Assembly: GCA_005772955.1 (NCBI GenBank)
Contig: SXID01000092.1
Location: 1 to 64,000, forward strand
DNA from: Planctomycetia bacterium
GTDB taxonomy: Bacteria > Planctomycetota > Planctomycetia > Gemmatales > Gemmataceae
DNA length: 64,000 nt
Direction: 5' to 3'
Below are positions 28,788 to 58,762 of the stretch, piece by piece. How positions within the stretch are numbered: the stretch's first letter is position 1; the number at the start of each line of letters is the position of its first letter. The position numbers were made by a program, and so were the translations under genes. A model generated the notes under the pieces. That model made no database searches and was not told the origin of the DNA. It saw nothing but the letters and a program-made list of their open reading frames with translations.

Positions 28788-30206
28788 TTACGCCAGTACT
28801 TCCTTCACCACCTTACCCTTCACGTCGGTGAGGCGGAAGTCGCGACCCGCGTAGCGGTACGTGAACTTCTCGTGGTCGAAGCCGAGCAGGTGCAGCATCG
28901 TCGCGTGCAGGTCGTGGACGTGGACCGGCTTCTCCACTGCCTTGAAGCCGAACTCGTCGGTCGCGCCGATCGCTTGCCCGCCTTTCACGCCGCCGCCCGC
29001 GAGCCACACCGAGAAGCCCCAGTGGTTGTGGTCGCGACCGTTGATCTTCCCCGCGTTCGACCCCGGCGTCGGCAGTTCCACCACCGGCGTGCGCCCGAAC
29101 TCGCCGCCCCACAGGATCAGCGTGCTGTCGAATAGCCCCAAGCGCTTCAGGTCCGCGATCAGCGCGGCGATGGCCTTATCGACTTGCCCCGCGAGCCGCT
29201 TGTGGCTGATTTCCAAATCGTCGTGACTGTCCCACGGCTGGACCGGGCCGTGACTCACCTGAACGAAGCGGACGCCTCGTTCGACCAGCCGACGCGCAAG
29301 CAGCAGACTCCGCGCCTGCTCGCCGGGGCCGTACGCGTCGATGATGTGCTTGGGTTCCTTCGTGATGTCGAACGCTTCGCTCGCCTCGGTCTGCATACGC
29401 GACGCCAACTCGAACGACTGGATGCGCGCTTCTAACTGCGGGTCATTAGGCCGCGCGTCCTGGTGCATCCCGTTGAGGCGCGCGAGCAGGTCGAGTTGCT
29501 TGCGCTGGTCGGCCTTCGTGGTCGCCTTGTTCTTCACGAACTCGACGAGCTTCTCCACGTCAGTGTGCTTCGAGTCAACGTAGGTGCCCTGGAATACGCC
29601 CGGCAGGAACCCGGACTGCCAGTTCTGGTTCTCCTGGAGCGGGTATCCGTTCGGGCACATCGCGACGAACCCCGGCAAATTCTGGTTCTCGGTGCCGAGG
29701 CCGTATGTGACCCAACTCCCCATGCTGGGGCGAATCTGACGCGGCTCACCGCAGTTCATCAGGAGGAACGACGGCTCGTGGTTCGGCACGTCCGCGTGCA
29801 TCGAGCGGATCACGCAGATGTCGTCCGCATGCTTCGCGGTGTTCGCGAACAGGTCGCTGATCTCAAGCCCACTCTGCCCGTATTTCTTGAACTTGAACGG
29901 CGACGGGAACGCGGCACCGGTGCGGCGCTCAGTGCGGTGATTCGCGATTGGCAGCGGCTTACCAGCGTACTTGTCAAGTGCCGGCTTAGGGTCGAAGGTA
30001 TCGACCTGCGACGGCCCGCCGTTGGCGAAGATGTGGATGACGCGCTTCGCCTTGCCCACGAAATGCGGCTTCTTCGGGCTGAGCGGGTTGAGATTGTCAG
30101 CGGCCAGCAACCCGGAGTCGCCCATGAGTTTCGTGAGGCCGAGCAAGCCCATACCGACGCCGCACCGGGTCAGCATCTCGCGCCGAGACATTGCGATAGG
30201 AAGCAT
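28788..30206 (-). CDS. DUF1501 domain protein (planctomycete sulfatase-like)
   Basis: AKRVIHIFANGGPSQVDTFDPKPALDKYAGKPLP, SWVTYGLGTENQNLPGFVAM, LILWGGEFGRTPVVELPTPGSNAGKINGRDHNHWGFSVWLAGGGVKGG. Confidence 0.95.
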   Translation of the reverse strand: MLPIAMSRREMLTRCGVGMGLLGLTKLMGDSGLLAADNLNPLSPKKPHFVGKAKRVIHIFANGGPSQVDTFDPKPALDKYAGKPLPIANHRTERRTGAAFPSPFKFKKYGQSGLEISDLFANTAKHADDICVIRSMHADVPNHEPSFLLMNCGEPRQIRPSMGSWVTYGLGTENQNLPGFVAMCPNGYPLQENQNWQSGFLPGVFQGTYVDSKHTDVEKLVEFVKNKATTKADQRKQLDLLARLNGMHQDARPNDPQLEARIQSFELASRMQTEASEAFDITKEPKHIIDAYGPGEQARSLLLARRLVERGVRFVQVSHGPVQPWDSHDDLEISHKRLAGQVDKAIAALIADLKRLGLFDSTLILWGGEFGRTPVVELPTPGSNAGKINGRDHNHWGFSVWLAGGGVKGGQAIGATDEFGFKAVEKPVHVHDLHATMLHLLGFDHEKFTYRYAGRDFRLTDVKGKVVKEVLA

Positions 30207-30219
30207 GTGAACCTCTTTA

Positions 30220-30592
30220 TCGTAGTCATCACGCTCCGCGTGATGTCCGCGCCGTGGCGAGCAATAACGTCCGGCGCAAATCGCTACCGCGCCGCGAAGG
30301 CGACATCACGCGGAGCGTGATGACTACGATGAGAACCGCGTGTTGTCTTTATCGTAGTCATCACGCTCCGCGTGATGTCCGCGCTGCGGTAAGCGATTAC
30401 GTTTTGTTCAAAGCGCACCTGAACGGCGAAGGCGACATCACGCGGAGCGTGATGACTACGATGAGAACCGCGTGTTGTCTTTATCGTAGTCATCACGCTC
30501 CGCGTGATGTCCGCGCTGCGGTAAGCGATTACATTTTGTTCAAAGCGCACCTGAACGGCGAAGGCGACATCACGCGGAGCGTGATGACTACG
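30220..30592. repeat. Array of three 110-bp palindrome-ended units with 132-bp periodicity
   Basis: Units at 30220-30329, 30352-30461 and 30484-30592, each starting tcgtagtcatcacgctccgcgtgatgtccgc and ending gacatcacgcggagcgtgatgactacg(a); identical 22-bp spacers tgagaaccgcgtgttgtcttta. Confidence 0.95.
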
Positions 30593-30593
30593 G

Positions 30594-33302
30594 TTAATCC
30601 ACGAAAGCGAACTCGTTACTCAGCAACAGCACCTGCGCCAACTGCGGCCAGCGCCCGAACGCGCTCTTCAGGTCGTCGTCACCGACGAACTCCGTGGCGA
30701 GCGCAAGTTCGTCCTTTGTCGGACTACGCCCCAGCGCGACGCGGTACAGTGCCGTCACCTTCGCTTGCGCGGTCTTTGCTTCAGTGATTTCTTTGCGCCC
30801 CGCGAGCGCCTTCGCCTGATCTTGCACGTACGGGCTGTTGAGCAGGAACAGCGCCTGTTGCGGCACGGTGGTCTGGAAGCGCTGCGGGCTGTGTGTGTCG
30901 AGACTCGCCACGTCGAAGACCCGGAACGTTCCGGGCAGGTTGGTCCGATCCAGCAAGCCGTACACGGTGCGCCGCGTCGAATACGGTGCCTTGAGCAGAT
31001 CGACCGGCTTCCCGCCGCTGGTTGTGTCGAGCTTGCCTGATGCAGTGAGCAAGGAATCGCGTAAGCCCTCGAAGTCGAGCCGGCGGCGGTTCTGGTGCGC
31101 GAGTAGCCGGTTCTCGGGATCGAGCTTGTACATGTCACCCGACACCGCGCTCGACTGCTGATAGGTGGCCGACAGCATGATGCGCTTGTGAAGGCGTTTG
31201 ATGCTCCAACCGTCCTTCATGAAGTTGCTCGCGAGGTAGTCGAGCAGATCGGGGTGCGTTGGCGGGTCGGACCGCATACCGAGATCGGAAGGAGTGCGCA
31301 CCAGACCGTGCCCAAAGTGGCCTAGCCACACGCGATTCGCCATCACGCGCGCCGTCAGCGGGTTCTCCGGGGCAGTAATGGCCTTTGCGAGTTCGAGGCG
31401 CCCGCTGCCTTGCGTGAACGGTTTGCGGTTCGGCGCCACGATCTCGGGCGCTTGTCGCGGTACTTGAGGGCCGCGGTTGTTCTGGTTGCCGCGGAGGAAC
31501 ACCACAGGCTGCGTCGGGGATGCGTTGTCTTTCAACACGTGCGCCCGTGGTGGGGCGTACGGGTTCGCAACCTTGAAGGAGTCGATCTTCTTGCGGAGCG
31601 CCGCGAGCGCATCGCGGTCGGCGCGGTTCTGGATCTTGTCCGCGTCCGCGACCAAAATGTCGATCGGCCCGCCGGTAGCCCACACCTTGAAGAGTTCCGC
31701 CTGCTCCTTCGTGAGGGTGCCCGGAGGCGGGTTCGCGCCAACCGTGTTCGCGAGCGTCTCGGCCACAGCCTTCACGTTCTTCGGTTTCGCGTCCGTAATC
31801 GCCTTCAGCACCAATGGGTTCGTGTCTTTTGCGAGCGCCCCGAGCGCCTTCGCTTCAAAGTCTCTCTCCTGGAGCGCGACGAGCGCGAGCAGAGGTGAAT
31901 ACACGGGTGATTTGGCTTTCCACTCCGTTTCGAGGAACGTGCGCCAGCGGTCGTAGACGAGTCGCGTCAGGTCGCGCTGCCGCAGTAGCGCTTGCACCTC
32001 GTCGTTCGGTTTGCCGCGCAAGTCCAGCACCGCGCGGAAGTACTCGGCCACAGTGAACGGGTCGCGAAGTTTCTTCAGCGTGGTCGCGTGCCGCCGCGCG
32101 CTTTCAGCTTTGAAGTCGGCCTCGCGCCGGTCGAGTTCCAACTCGTAGGCGAGGACTTCTGGTGTCTGCTTCACCTCACCGATCAGCGGCAGTTCCGCCG
32201 GTTCGTTGGTGCTCGCAAACACGCCGTAAAGCGAGTAGTAATCCTTTGTCGGTATGGGGTCGTACTTGTGGTCGTGACAACGCGCGCACGTCACGGTGAG
32301 GCCCATGAAACCACGCGTCACTACGTCGATGCGGTCGTCAATGATGTCGGCTTGGTTGTTCAGGAACCGCCGCCCCAGCGTGAGGAATCCCATCGCCGCG
32401 AGCGGACGCTTATCCTCGCCGAGCGGAAGCAGGTCGGCCGCGATCTGTTCCGTCACGAACCGATCGTATGGCTTGTCTTCGTTGAACGAACGGATGACGT
32501 AGTCGCGGTAGGTGTAAGAAAACGCGAAGGCACGTTCCTGTGTGAGGACGTAGCCCTTCGAGTCGGCGTAGCGTGCGATGTCGAGCCAGTACCGGCCCCA
32601 GCGCTCGCCGTAGCGCTCGCTCGCGAGTAACCGGTCGATGAGTTTCTCCCACGCGTCTGGGGATTCGTCCTTCACGAATGCTTCAATTTCTTCGGCTGTA
32701 GGCGGAAGACCGATCAGGTCGAAGTACGCGCGGCGGATCAGCGTGCGTTTATCCGCTCGCGGCGCGAGTGACATCCCCTTGTCACTGAGCTTCGCGAGAA
32801 CGAACGCATCAATGGGGTAGAGCGGACCGTTCGCCTTCGGCTCACGGCTAACTTTGGGAACATCGGGTAGCTTGACAGGCTGGAACGCCCAGTGCTTCTT
32901 TGGATCCGTCGCCGGTCCAATGGCGATATCGTCAGGGATCGCGGCCCCACTCTTCACCCACTCCACCAGAATCTCGATCGCTGCTGGCGGAAGCGGCGTC
33001 TTGGGCGGCATCGGCAGTTCGTGCTCGCGCCGCACCGACTTGATGAGGCGACTCTTCGCGGGGTCGCCCGGCACGATGACTTTGCCGTTGTCGGCCCCTA
33101 CTCTGATGCCCGCGGCGGTGTCGAGGCGCAAACCGGCATTCTGCTTCTTCGCACCGTGGCACGAATAGCAGTTTTCCGCCAACACTGGGCGCACTTTCGT
33201 CTCGAAGTATTCGAGTTGCGCCGCAGTCGGTTTGGCGACAGGATCAGCAGCTAGTGCTGGAACGACATATGAAACGGTGCAGAGTGCGAGTAGCAACCGC
33301 AT
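30594..33302 (-). CDS. PSCyt1/DUF1549/DUF1553 domain protein
   Basis: ENCYSCHGAKKQNAGLRLDT; DAFVLAKLSDKGMSLAPRADKRTLIRRAYFDLIGLPPT; TCARCHDHKYDPIPTKDYYSLYGVF; ARVMANRVWLGHFGHGLVRTPSDLG. Confidence 0.96.
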   Translation of the reverse strand: MRLLLALCTVSYVVPALAADPVAKPTAAQLEYFETKVRPVLAENCYSCHGAKKQNAGLRLDTAAGIRVGADNGKVIVPGDPAKSRLIKSVRREHELPMPPKTPLPPAAIEILVEWVKSGAAIPDDIAIGPATDPKKHWAFQPVKLPDVPKVSREPKANGPLYPIDAFVLAKLSDKGMSLAPRADKRTLIRRAYFDLIGLPPTAEEIEAFVKDESPDAWEKLIDRLLASERYGERWGRYWLDIARYADSKGYVLTQERAFAFSYTYRDYVIRSFNEDKPYDRFVTEQIAADLLPLGEDKRPLAAMGFLTLGRRFLNNQADIIDDRIDVVTRGFMGLTVTCARCHDHKYDPIPTKDYYSLYGVFASTNEPAELPLIGEVKQTPEVLAYELELDRREADFKAESARRHATTLKKLRDPFTVAEYFRAVLDLRGKPNDEVQALLRQRDLTRLVYDRWRTFLETEWKAKSPVYSPLLALVALQERDFEAKALGALAKDTNPLVLKAITDAKPKNVKAVAETLANTVGANPPPGTLTKEQAELFKVWATGGPIDILVADADKIQNRADRDALAALRKKIDSFKVANPYAPPRAHVLKDNASPTQPVVFLRGNQNNRGPQVPRQAPEIVAPNRKPFTQGSGRLELAKAITAPENPLTARVMANRVWLGHFGHGLVRTPSDLGMRSDPPTHPDLLDYLASNFMKDGWSIKRLHKRIMLSATYQQSSAVSGDMYKLDPENRLLAHQNRRRLDFEGLRDSLLTASGKLDTTSGGKPVDLLKAPYSTRRTVYGLLDRTNLPGTFRVFDVASLDTHSPQRFQTTVPQQALFLLNSPYVQDQAKALAGRKEITEAKTAQAKVTALYRVALGRSPTKDELALATEFVGDDDLKSAFGRWPQLAQVLLLSNEFAFVD

Positions 33303-43554: not shown

Positions 43555-43717
43555 TCCGAGATTATAAGGATGTCGGCGCAGGTTTCTTCCGCCGCTTGCG
43601 TCTTCGCGGGTGTCTCACCCAGCGCGGCGCTCGCATAGCCGCAAGCGGCACATACGGCGCGCCGAATGGCGTCAGTGCCTGCTTGCGTTGTCAGGTGTGT
43701 TCCGAGATAACAGAAGC

Positions 43718-45100
43718 ATGACCCGCGCTGCCGTCTTCAATGCTGTGCTTCCTTCGCGCCGTGACTGGTTGCGCATTGGCGTTCCCGCCGCGCTCGCAAC
43801 CTGGGGCATGCCCGCGTTGGCCGCGACGCCCCAACCGGCGAGCAGCGGTTTCGGTCGGGCGAAGTCCGTGGTCGTGATCTTCACCAGCGGCGGGCAGAGT
43901 CAGCTCGACACCTGGGATCCGAAGCCGAACGCACCCGAAGAAATCCGCGGCGTGTTCCGCAGTATCCAGACGCGGAACACCGAACTGCGGGTCTGCGAAC
44001 ACTTGCCACTAATGGCCTCGCTCGCGGACCGCTTCGCGCTTCTGCGATCAATGACCCACGACGATCTCGACCACGGTTCCGCGTGCTATCTCGCGCTAAC
44101 CGGTCAGCATCACCCGCGGAAGTCGTCCAACCCACCGCCGCGACAGACCGATTTCCCCGCCCTCGGCGCGGTCCTCAAGCGTCTCAGTCCATCGAAAGAA
44201 TTCCCGCACACCGCGGTTCACGTGAACGGACCGCTGCTCGCGCCGAAGGAAGTTGCGCCGGGGCAGTACGGAGGGTTCCTCGGCCGCGCGTACGAACCGG
44301 CTGAACTCGGCAACGTCACCGACACAGACAAGTTGGTCGAGTCTCTCAATCTGCCTTCCGATGTGCCCGTGGACCGGCTTCATTCGCGCCAGGACTTGCT
44401 CGCCAGACTCGACCCGGGCACGAGCGCCGACCCACTCGCGCAGAAAGCGTTCGAGTTGGTGAACGCGCCACGCGTGCAAGCCGCGTTCGATCTCGACCGC
44501 GAAGCTGAAAAGCTCCGCGACCGCTACGGTCGACACCGCTCCGGGCAAGCGTGCTTGATGGCGCGTCGACTGGTGGAAGTGGGTGTTCCGTGGATCACGG
44601 TGTTCTTCAACCACGGCATTCGCGGGCAGGATGACTCCCCAGACGACACCGACGAATACGGCTGGGACACGCACAACGACATCTTCGATTCGCTGAAGTC
44701 GCACCTGCTCCCGCGATTCGATCACAGTGTTTCTGCGTTCCTCGAAGACATGGGCGTACGGGGGTTGCTCGCTACAACGCTTGTTGTCGTGATGGGCGAG
44801 TTCGGCCGCGCCCCGCTGGTCGCGTTGGAGAAGAACTTCGCCGGGCGCGGCTCGCCAGGTCGCAAGCACTGGGGCGCATGCTATACGGTGTTGCTCGCGG
44901 GCGCCGGCGTCGTGCCCGGTGCGCTCTACGGAAAGTCCGACCGGTTCGCGGCGTACCCAGCGGCTGAACCAACCACACCGGGCGACCTCGCGGCGACGAT
45001 GTTTCACGCGCTGGGTATCAGCCCCGACGCGCACTACACCGACGCCACCAACCGCCCGTACCGCGCAGTCGCCGGAAGCCCAGTCACGAAACTATTCTGA
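43718..45100 (+). CDS. DUF1501 domain protein
   Basis: AKSVVVIFTSGGQSQLDTWDPKPNAPEEIRGVF, LLRSMTHDDLDHGSACYLALTG, VVVMGEFGRAPLV; start at MTRAAVF. Confidence 0.93.
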   Translation: MTRAAVFNAVLPSRRDWLRIGVPAALATWGMPALAATPQPASSGFGRAKSVVVIFTSGGQSQLDTWDPKPNAPEEIRGVFRSIQTRNTELRVCEHLPLMASLADRFALLRSMTHDDLDHGSACYLALTGQHHPRKSSNPPPRQTDFPALGAVLKRLSPSKEFPHTAVHVNGPLLAPKEVAPGQYGGFLGRAYEPAELGNVTDTDKLVESLNLPSDVPVDRLHSRQDLLARLDPGTSADPLAQKAFELVNAPRVQAAFDLDREAEKLRDRYGRHRSGQACLMARRLVEVGVPWITVFFNHGIRGQDDSPDDTDEYGWDTHNDIFDSLKSHLLPRFDHSVSAFLEDMGVRGLLATTLVVVMGEFGRAPLVALEKNFAGRGSPGRKHWGACYTVLLAGAGVVPGALYGKSDRFAAYPAAEPTTPGDLAATMFHALGISPDAHYTDATNRPYRAVAGSPVTKLF

Positions 45101-45134
45101 TCGTAGTCATCACACTCCGCGTGATGACCACACG
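45098..45134. repeat. Solitary arm of the 30220-30592 repeat family abutting a DUF1501 stop codon
   Basis: TGA followed by tcgtagtcatcacactccgcgtgatgaccac; matches the unit start tcgtagtcatcacgctccgcgtgatgtccgc. Confidence 0.8.
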
Positions 45135-57158: not shown

Positions 57159-58762
57159 CCCCAGTTCTGTTGCCATCTTGGACTTACCCAACTGGTTCTG
57201 AATTAGCAGGTTAGGGCTTTCGTTGTGGCGAAATTGGGGTTCAGATGGTGACCGTTGGACGTCGCGTGGTGCGGCGTCCACGAACCCAAGCAGGGAAGCC
57301 GCCGTGATTCTGCCACCCCACCGGCGGACACCTCCCGCCAAGTACCAACAGACCACCGACTTCGCACGACAGGTCTTCGACAGCCTGCCGCTGGCCCACG
57401 CCTCGCTCGCACTCTTCGCCTACGGCGTCACCACGCCGTTCCTCGCCGACCTGTTCCAGCGGCATCGGGGACGCTGTTACGAGGACGTCGTTACCTTCCC
57501 GCAACTCGTCGACTGGATCTTCGATGCCCTCATCGAGCACCAGGGATCCGGTCGCCAGGCACACCTGCAACGCCACCGACAACAGAACGACGCCGGCCAC
57601 GAAGCCTTCTACGGTAAGCTCCGCCGCGTCCCCTCGGGTCTGAGCGAAGCCTTCCTCCGCGAGGTCACCGACCGCTTCACCACCCTCTTCCCCAAGGTTG
57701 TCGCTCACCGCATCCCCGCCTCCTTCGACCGCTCGGAAGTCGTCATCCTCGACGGCAAGAGTCTCAAGAACGTGGCCAAGCGACTGGTCGAAACGCGGGG
57801 CACGCCGGGCAAACTTCTGGGCGGCAAGTTGCTCGTCGCGTACCGACCCCGCGATGGTCTGGTTCTGGACATGGCCTCCGATCTCGATGGCGAAACCAAC
57901 GAGGCCAAACTGATCCCGCATCTGATGCCGCGACAGCGTGCCCGTCCCGGTCTTGCGGCACTCGTGGTCGGGGATCGCCTGTTCTGTGCGCTGAAGCACT
58001 TCGACGAGTTCACCAAGGAAAGCGGCCATTTCGTGGTCCGACACGCCCGGACGTTGTCGTTCGAGCCGGATCCGAATCGCCCGGCCGTCGCGACCACCGA
58101 CGCCGCCCATCGGGCGGTGGTCGAACAATGGGGGTGGGCCGGCAAGCCGAAGGAGAAGCTCCGCCGCTACGTCCGGCGGATCACCGTCGAACGCCCGGCG
58201 GACGAAGCGATCACGATCCTCACCGACCTGCTCGAACCCGACCTGCATCCCGCCGCCGATCTGTTGGCCCTGTACCGGATCCGGTGGAGCATCGAGAGCA
58301 CGTTCCAGAAGGTGACGGAGATCTTCGCGTTGGGTCGCTTCATCGGCTCGACGCCGGAGGCGACGGTGCTTCAGGCGTCGATGTGCTTCGTCCTGGCGAA
58401 CGTGGTGCAGGTGCTCCAGGGGTATGTGGTGGCGAAACAGAAGTTGACCTTCGAGGATTTATCGACGGAGCAGTTCTGCACGGACTGGCATCGTCAACTG
58501 GTGGCGTTGAAGGAGTTGGTGAGCGTGCCCATGATCGTGTCGTTGATTCCGTCGGATCTGACGGCGGAGAGCCTGGCGAAGCTGTTGGATGAGTTATTGG
58601 GCACGATGTGGAAACCGGGCTGGGACAAGACCCGCAACAAGTCGCCCCGAGCTCACCCCCACGCCGCGAAACAGAAAGGGGCACACACCTCCGTTCAACG
58701 TCGCCGCCAAGCCCAGAAGTCCAAGGCTGCCAAGTGAAACTCAGTTGTGCATAGCACTGGGG
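57159..58762 (+). mobile_element. IS4-like insertion sequence (ends inferred)
   Basis: CCCCAGTtctgttgc at the left and its imperfect inverse gcatagcACTGGGG at the right bracket the transposase ORF; TAG directly flanks both ends (57156-57158, 58763-58765). Confidence 0.6.
57223..58737 (+). CDS. IS4-family-like DDE transposase
   Basis: VILDGKSLKNVAKRL, GLAALVVGDRLFC, LLALYRIRWSIESTFQKVTEIFALGRFIGSTPEATVLQASMCFVLANVVQV (Y-(2)-R-(3)-E-(6)-K-type signature). Confidence 0.88.
   Translation: MWRNWGSDGDRWTSRGAASTNPSREAAVILPPHRRTPPAKYQQTTDFARQVFDSLPLAHASLALFAYGVTTPFLADLFQRHRGRCYEDVVTFPQLVDWIFDALIEHQGSGRQAHLQRHRQQNDAGHEAFYGKLRRVPSGLSEAFLREVTDRFTTLFPKVVAHRIPASFDRSEVVILDGKSLKNVAKRLVETRGTPGKLLGGKLLVAYRPRDGLVLDMASDLDGETNEAKLIPHLMPRQRARPGLAALVVGDRLFCALKHFDEFTKESGHFVVRHARTLSFEPDPNRPAVATTDAAHRAVVEQWGWAGKPKEKLRRYVRRITVERPADEAITILTDLLEPDLHPAADLLALYRIRWSIESTFQKVTEIFALGRFIGSTPEATVLQASMCFVLANVVQVLQGYVVAKQKLTFEDLSTEQFCTDWHRQLVALKELVSVPMIVSLIPSDLTAESLAKLLDELLGTMWKPGWDKTRNKSPRAHPHAAKQKGAHTSVQRRRQAQKSKAAK

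Follow-up and report, generated by a model that had tools for sequence, protein, structure and literature searches.

The window analysed here, a stretch of 64,000 nucleotides in total, raises the question of what kind of element has placed a regular array of palindromic repeats between two genes that usually stand close together, and whether the position between these particular genes has a meaning of its own. The features on which the answer rests are the following:

28788-30206, minus strand: DUF1501-family gene, 472 aa, downstream partner of the pair (PF07394, E 1.4e-152)
30219-30330, minus strand: REPIN unit 1, core 64% identical to that of unit 2
30222-30245, plus strand: REP hairpin GTAG-T-CATCACGC-TCC-GCGTGATG, with its inverted partner at 30304-30327 on the minus strand; the REPs of the other two units lie at offsets of +132 and +264 from those of unit 1
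30331-30350, no strand: spacer 1, containing a half-REP severed at the tip of the hairpin (minus-strand reading GACAACACGCGG)
30351-30462, minus strand: REPIN unit 2, a single internal base changed relative to unit 3
30463-30482, no strand: spacer 2, identical to spacer 1
30483-30594, minus strand: REPIN unit 3, adjoining the DUF1553 stop codon
30594-33302, minus strand: PSCyt1-PSCyt2-PSD1 (DUF1553) gene, 902 aa, upstream partner of the pair
45103-45125, plus strand: one decayed REP belonging to this family, located 2 bp past the stop of another DUF1501-family gene (43610-45100)

In full agreement with the initial annotation, the array lies between DUF1553 and DUF1501 genes on the same strand, both minus, and its units recur at exactly 132 bp: a repeat search returned copies at 30214-30345, 30346-30477 and 30478-30609. 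With unit boundaries set at ATCGTAG...CTACGAT, the array occupies positions 30219-30594 and consists of three 112-bp units separated by identical 20-bp spacers. The 110-bp units and 22-bp spacers described initially represent the same array, cut one base shorter or longer at each side. Each unit is built from two inverted REPs of the form GTAG-T-CATCACGC-TCC-GCGTGATG, with the GTAG outside each hairpin. Either end of a unit can form a hairpin alone (CATCACGC-TCC-GCGTGATG), and since the two ends are mutually inverted, perfectly so over 29 nt in the repeat search, the whole unit makes up one long hairpin, as is characteristic of REPINs or BIMEs. The mini-palindromes noted at the inverted ends are borne out by this. 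The individual repeats share the properties of the GTAG REP super-family, i.e., a GT[AG]G located 0-2 nt 5' of a hairpin with a stem of at least 7 bp; in the family studied here the layout is GTAG, T, an 8-bp stem and a TCC loop, and the third base of GT[AG]G is A in 90% of the copies.

Comparison of the units allows their relationship to be specified. Units 2 and 3 differ in one internal base (G/A) and in one edge base bordering the DUF1553 stop codon, so that the single difference counted initially holds for the interior and has to be supplemented by the edge. Unit 1 differs from unit 2 at 18 positions, all in the core, while its ends are conserved, just as had been described. The cores of units 1 and 2 both measure 50 bp and are 64% identical, compared with 26% for shuffled cores. 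On account of the equal length and this degree of identity, the core of unit 1 is regarded as diverged and not, as had been proposed, as replaced. We therefore interpret the array as a pair of diverged REPINs, of which one was copied along with its spacer; the recent tandem amplification put forward earlier can be upheld for units 2 and 3, which are nearly identical together with the spacer. Each spacer contains one half of a REP, severed at the tip of the hairpin (GACAACACGCGG/TTCTCATCGTAG), and the same junction is present in the arrays on contigs C148 and C76. This common cut point suggests that REPIN arrays may form by breakage at the hairpin loop.

The TAA stop codon of the DUF1553 gene lies 2 bp before the GTAG of unit 3. 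At the other end unit 1 borders on the DUF1501 start with its outer edge, ATAAAGAGG, at a distance suitable for a ribosome-binding site, which this edge may indeed supply. The remaining DUF1553-DUF1501 pairs of the genome are mostly 0-100 bp apart, as expected of an operon. The window also contains a DDE_Tnp_1 transposase gene (57736-58401), one of only two such matches in this genome, while up to 82 are present in some relatives of the same genus.

To what extent the repeat is a family of its own was analyzed in the 5.93-Mb draft genome from which the window originates (G000), using a 17-bp hairpin pattern with at most one mismatch and the reversed pattern as a control. This yielded 74 exact and 16 one-mismatch copies, i.e., 90 in total, and none for the control. 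Copies of the hairpin outside the array, which the initial annotation had left to be sought, are accordingly found: there are 46 sites, with one REP at ten, two at 25, three at six, four at four and six at the window array, the largest intact site among them. Note that the copy number of an array may be wrong, because the draft assembly breaks in several of them; contigs C148, C76, C77 and C32 end inside this repeat family. The inter-unit spacers on C62, C148 and C76 contain half-REPs cut at the same hairpin-tip point (CGCGG/TT).

When the sites were placed relative to genes, using ORF predictions trained on the codon usage of the genus, 26 fell between same-strand, 13 between convergent and two between divergent genes, four were located at contig ends and only one of the 46 inside a predicted gene. 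The many dispersed copies are therefore chiefly extragenic, as is typical of REPINs and BIMEs. Among the 42 sites neighboring the 3' end of a gene, 35 begin no more than 20 bp from the stop codon, and at nine sites the REP itself provides the stop codon, through the TAG within its GTAG. A CT dinucleotide starts 7 nt before the GTAG in 34 of 86 outer flanks compared with 4.4% per position further out. Five sites with dispersed REPs (two on C62 and one each on C148, C85 and C210) follow DUF1553 or DUF1501 genes. This enrichment is weak and was not used as an argument; the association with these genes discussed further below rests on RAYT genes.

The initial annotation had recommended looking for a RAYT elsewhere in the genome. 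Eight Y1-transposase matches are present, and REPINs of the window family border the match on contig C148 on either side, the arrangement known from REPIN systems:

G000:C148:26497-27174 (L069:2498-3175): cognate RAYT, 225 aa, HUH/Y1

The gene terminates at a TAG that is part of the GTAG of the first downstream REP, and the cores of the REPINs beside it differ from those of the dispersed ones. The protein scores above the cut-off of PF01797 and matches NF047646 (REP_Tyr_transpos) with an E-value of 1.1e-17 and 64.3 bits, below the curated equivalog cut-off of 80 bits, so that it has to be considered a divergent RAYT; NF047646 is a narrow naming model, and passing it is no biological requirement of a RAYT. 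When 32 sequences were aligned, the HUH histidines H140 and H142 as well as Y200 and N204 showed no variation. The best fold match in the PDB for an AlphaFold2 model of the protein (pLDDT 88.8) is 4ER8, the structure of a RAYT in complex with a REP hairpin, followed by the IS608 and ISDra2 transposases. A profile search of the PDB also returned 4ER8 (5e-4), a single-sequence search of the PDB gave nothing significant and a PHROGs search produced no match. With a Y1 fold, an HUH motif and a single catalytic tyrosine, the protein has the structural features of a RAYT (TnpA_REP), and the CT at position -7 points to this dinucleotide as the place where it may cut its cognate single-stranded REP. 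An assignment to IS200/IS605 insertion sequences, which are self-mobile and have several tnpA copies with fixed left and right ends, was rejected: the genome holds no second copy of the C148 RAYT, and the nearest relative there is 55% identical and associated with other REPs.

This relative is encoded on contig C52, where it is flanked by the REP GTAGGTCACTCGCTCCGCGAGTGAC, present in 19 exact copies. As the repeat differs from that of the C148 RAYT, specificity goes with the RAYT. A survey covered 85 related RAYT ORFs, mostly from Planctomycetota and Verrucomicrobiota: a GT[AG]G hairpin flanks 40 of them compared with five of 81 control stretches located 1.5 kb away, and 33 of the hairpins in this survey have the TCC loop in common, with different stems. 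Two relatives are rich in copies of the window REP (182 in G003 and 54 in G016) and harbor no obvious cognate RAYT, so that the number of REPs is not closely tied to the presence of a RAYT. Since the G016 assembly is nearly closed (two contigs), its RAYT may have been lost or another may serve in its place.

Given a genomic repeat family and a RAYT flanked by the same REPINs, we state with high confidence that the array consists of three REPINs (BIMEs) in tandem, i.e., non-autonomous elements presumably mobilized in trans by the C148 RAYT; the suspicion of RAYT-type elements voiced initially was justified. The elements, their genomic family, the apparent cognate RAYT, the placement after stop codons, the CT site and the predicted folding can be read from the sequence; we infer the mobility of the REPINs, the order of events in the array and an effect on expression. 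In single-stranded DNA the RAYT would bind each REP at its GTAG-tagged hairpin, cut at the CT a few bases outside the GTAG and move the whole doublet, with copies surviving where they are harmless, mainly directly after stop codons. The array would have begun with one ancestral REPIN inserted behind the DUF1553 stop codon, joined next by another REPIN or by a copy of the first that diverged with time, and tandem duplication of unit 2 and its spacer would then have given rise to unit 3. DUF1553 and DUF1501 are normally joined in a tight operon, so three hairpins of very high predicted stability should separate the cistrons on the transcript. By analogy with intercistronic REPs of other bacteria, their likeliest effect would be to protect the upstream DUF1553 message from 3' decay and to lower DUF1501 expression.

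In principle, the hairpins could be there because selection keeps a strong hairpin between DUF1553 and DUF1501 for the sake of their expression ratio, REPINs being just one of several sources. What speaks for this explanation is the state of the orthologous gap in relatives, where other hairpin elements are frequent and no RAYT was found in the relatives examined. In the closest relative (G001, DUF1501 96% identical) the gap lacks a REPIN and holds a perfect hairpin, and that of G006, from the DUF1553 stop to the DUF1501 start, contains a GTGG-type REPIN. Inverted ends resembling GAACGGCCGGCGTGAGCCGGCTGGTG occur in G003, G007 and G009, and other inverted repeats in G002, G005 and G012. An exact 12-bp inverted repeat is present in six of 11 orthologous gaps (50-159 bp) compared with 11 of 70 size-matched same-strand gaps from random regions, an excess that is suggestive and weakened by the shared ancestry of some elements: some of the 11 gaps have one element family in common and are not independent. 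Moreover, the gap is short or free of hairpins in G014 (20 bp, containing almost nothing), G008, G011 and G013, it carries a protein-coding insertion instead in G015, and most REPINs of the genome simply follow the stop codons of any gene. Taken together, we consider selection for a hairpin unlikely as the reason for the array. The unrelated hairpin elements in the orthologous gap of different species of the genus are contained in stretches L220-L234.

The stability of the predicted RNA hairpins would suggest that they act as a transcription terminator or as a regulatory RNA element that separates the two genes. A single unit folds as RNA with a predicted -65.9 kcal/mol (z = -8.8), the complete array folds as single-stranded DNA with a predicted z of -17.7, and together with the 90 hairpin copies against none for the reversed control this structure is far beyond chance. 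However, scans of the DUF1553-DUF1501 gap detected neither a promoter-like site nor a terminator-like one with a T tract, and a search of the array against Rfam gave nothing above the gathering score, the sub-threshold matches being mainly to microRNA models, which fit any long hairpin. An intrinsic terminator, i.e., a GC stem followed by a T tract, was rejected on the result of the scans. The same element, furthermore, follows many other genes in both unidirectional and convergent settings, which makes a dedicated function as terminator or regulatory RNA very improbable. Least probable of all is an assembly artefact or mis-assembled repeat, an idea nourished by the draft contigs that end in the repeat family and contradicted by the position of the array inside a 71.8-kb contig, by a unit 1 clearly unlike units 2 and 3, by two-unit arrays of identical design on C102 and C157, set in unique flanking sequence, and by the consideration that collapse of extra copies is likelier than their invention.

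With the array best explained as a REPIN cluster, the position between the two genes can be considered separately. The use of this gap by RAYTs and by unrelated hairpin elements goes beyond the initial annotation, as do the GTAG tag, the CT site and the placement at stop codons. The neighborhoods of 65 RAYT/Y1 genes were surveyed in 26 genomes, i.e., that of the window and its relatives. Eight lie inside a same-strand DUF1553-DUF1501 pair: those on C52, C89 and C148 of the window genome, on G006 C146, G014 C49 and G009 C11, and at 7.44M in G002 and 4.31M in G012. A ninth, on G015 C614, is probable, as the contig start falls inside the RAYT and DUF1501 follows. In the case of the C148 RAYT, the DUF1501 half of the pair is encoded on contig C76 (C76:4000-6984, L269); the ends of C148 and C76 overlap by 108 identical bases, which makes the join likely and not proven because the overlap is repeat sequence. 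Seven further RAYTs follow a DUF1501 gene within 475 bp. For comparison, only one of 30 DDE transposase genes has such a neighbor, and 400 kb of random regions contained two DUF1553 genes. Assuming a generous chance of 1.5% per gene, nine in 65 corresponds to a binomial probability of 6e-7, though the genes are not all independent.

In a tree of DUF1501 proteins that includes 15 RAYT-bearing pairs, among them pairs from further named genomes, the RAYT label needs eight changes, at least six of which are forced by well-supported branches. One group of pairs comprising several genera fits a single old insertion that was inherited vertically. The pair on contig C222 of the window genome (L337), without a RAYT and with 6 bp from stop to start, is the orthologue of the RAYT-bearing pairs of G002, G014 and G015. 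The RAYT insertions in G002 and G014 start directly after the stop codon and are bounded by long inverted repeats. In this genome and its relatives RAYTs thus lie repeatedly between DUF1553 and DUF1501, in at least six separate lineages of the pair, and it is a slot of this kind that the window array occupies. RAYT-like genes in DUF1553-DUF1501 gaps of many planctomycetes are contained in stretches L286, L112, L117, L118, L367, L423, L163, L166, L167, L180 and L215. Those of L117, L118 and L367 have long terminal inverted repeats with inner palindromes, similar to TIRtrons, and in L117 and L118 these repeats begin directly after the DUF1553 stop codon.

We tentatively propose that the planctomycete DUF1553-DUF1501 gap is a preferred home for RAYTs and hairpin elements, entered in at least six lineages, sometimes inherited for long periods and maybe part of how the pair is expressed. 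If true, a single-strand transposase would have been domesticated inside an operon, recurrently and in a traceable manner, in gene pairs that are themselves highly multiplied. RAYTs are known for persisting in host genomes for reasons on which there is no agreement. If the slot has been reoccupied on separate lineages, occupied and empty pairs within one genome would make function versus tolerance of RAYTs and REPINs directly testable. The array itself is ordinary, and the recurrent slot is the less expected part. A search of openly licensed papers returned no report of a link between RAYTs or REPs and DUF1501 or DUF1553 genes, which within this scope is weak evidence of absence.

The array extends a well-described replicator system to another planctomycete, complete with a REPIN population, a cognate RAYT and a probable cut site. 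It was compared with the REPINs/BIMEs and RAYTs of Pseudomonas fluorescens SBW25, E. coli and Stenotrophomonas (PMC3116915, PMC2817692, PMC8266576). The systems have in common short GTAG-tagged palindromes, inverted doublets of about 110 bp in mainly extragenic positions, tandem clusters of near-identical REPINs including flanking sequence, a RAYT gene bordered by copies of the same repeat and a CT at a fixed place outside the GTAG; characterized RAYTs cut at CT (PMC8266576). The present case differs in its planctomycete host, in a divergent RAYT of 225 aa and in an inter-unit spacer that is a half-REP cut at the tip. REP hairpins between two cistrons of an operon recall the intercistronic REPs of Higgins et al. 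1982, as cited in PMC2817692. Y1 class 3 enzymes have been reported from Planctomycetes (PMC6006769), and GTAG repeats from the PVC superphylum and Planctomycetes including Rhodopirellula baltica were described by Di Nocera et al. 2013 (PMC3733652). The same paper gives stop codons supplied by the TAG of the REP as a trait of GTAG repeats. The head-head (HH) dimers described there resemble the window units in having the GTAG outside and their repeats 20-100 bp apart, and the 8-bp stem and 3-nt loop of the window REP lie within the 5-13 bp and 2-20 nt given for the super-family. The window REP sequence itself was not encountered in the text of that paper, family consensus figures apart. The RAYT-like genes in the gaps of G002 (C1:7.44M), G014 (C49) and G009 (C11), with their long palindrome-containing TIRs, resemble the TIRtrons and TIRYTs as outlined there, whereas the window array belongs to a transposase of the REP type and not of the TIR type.
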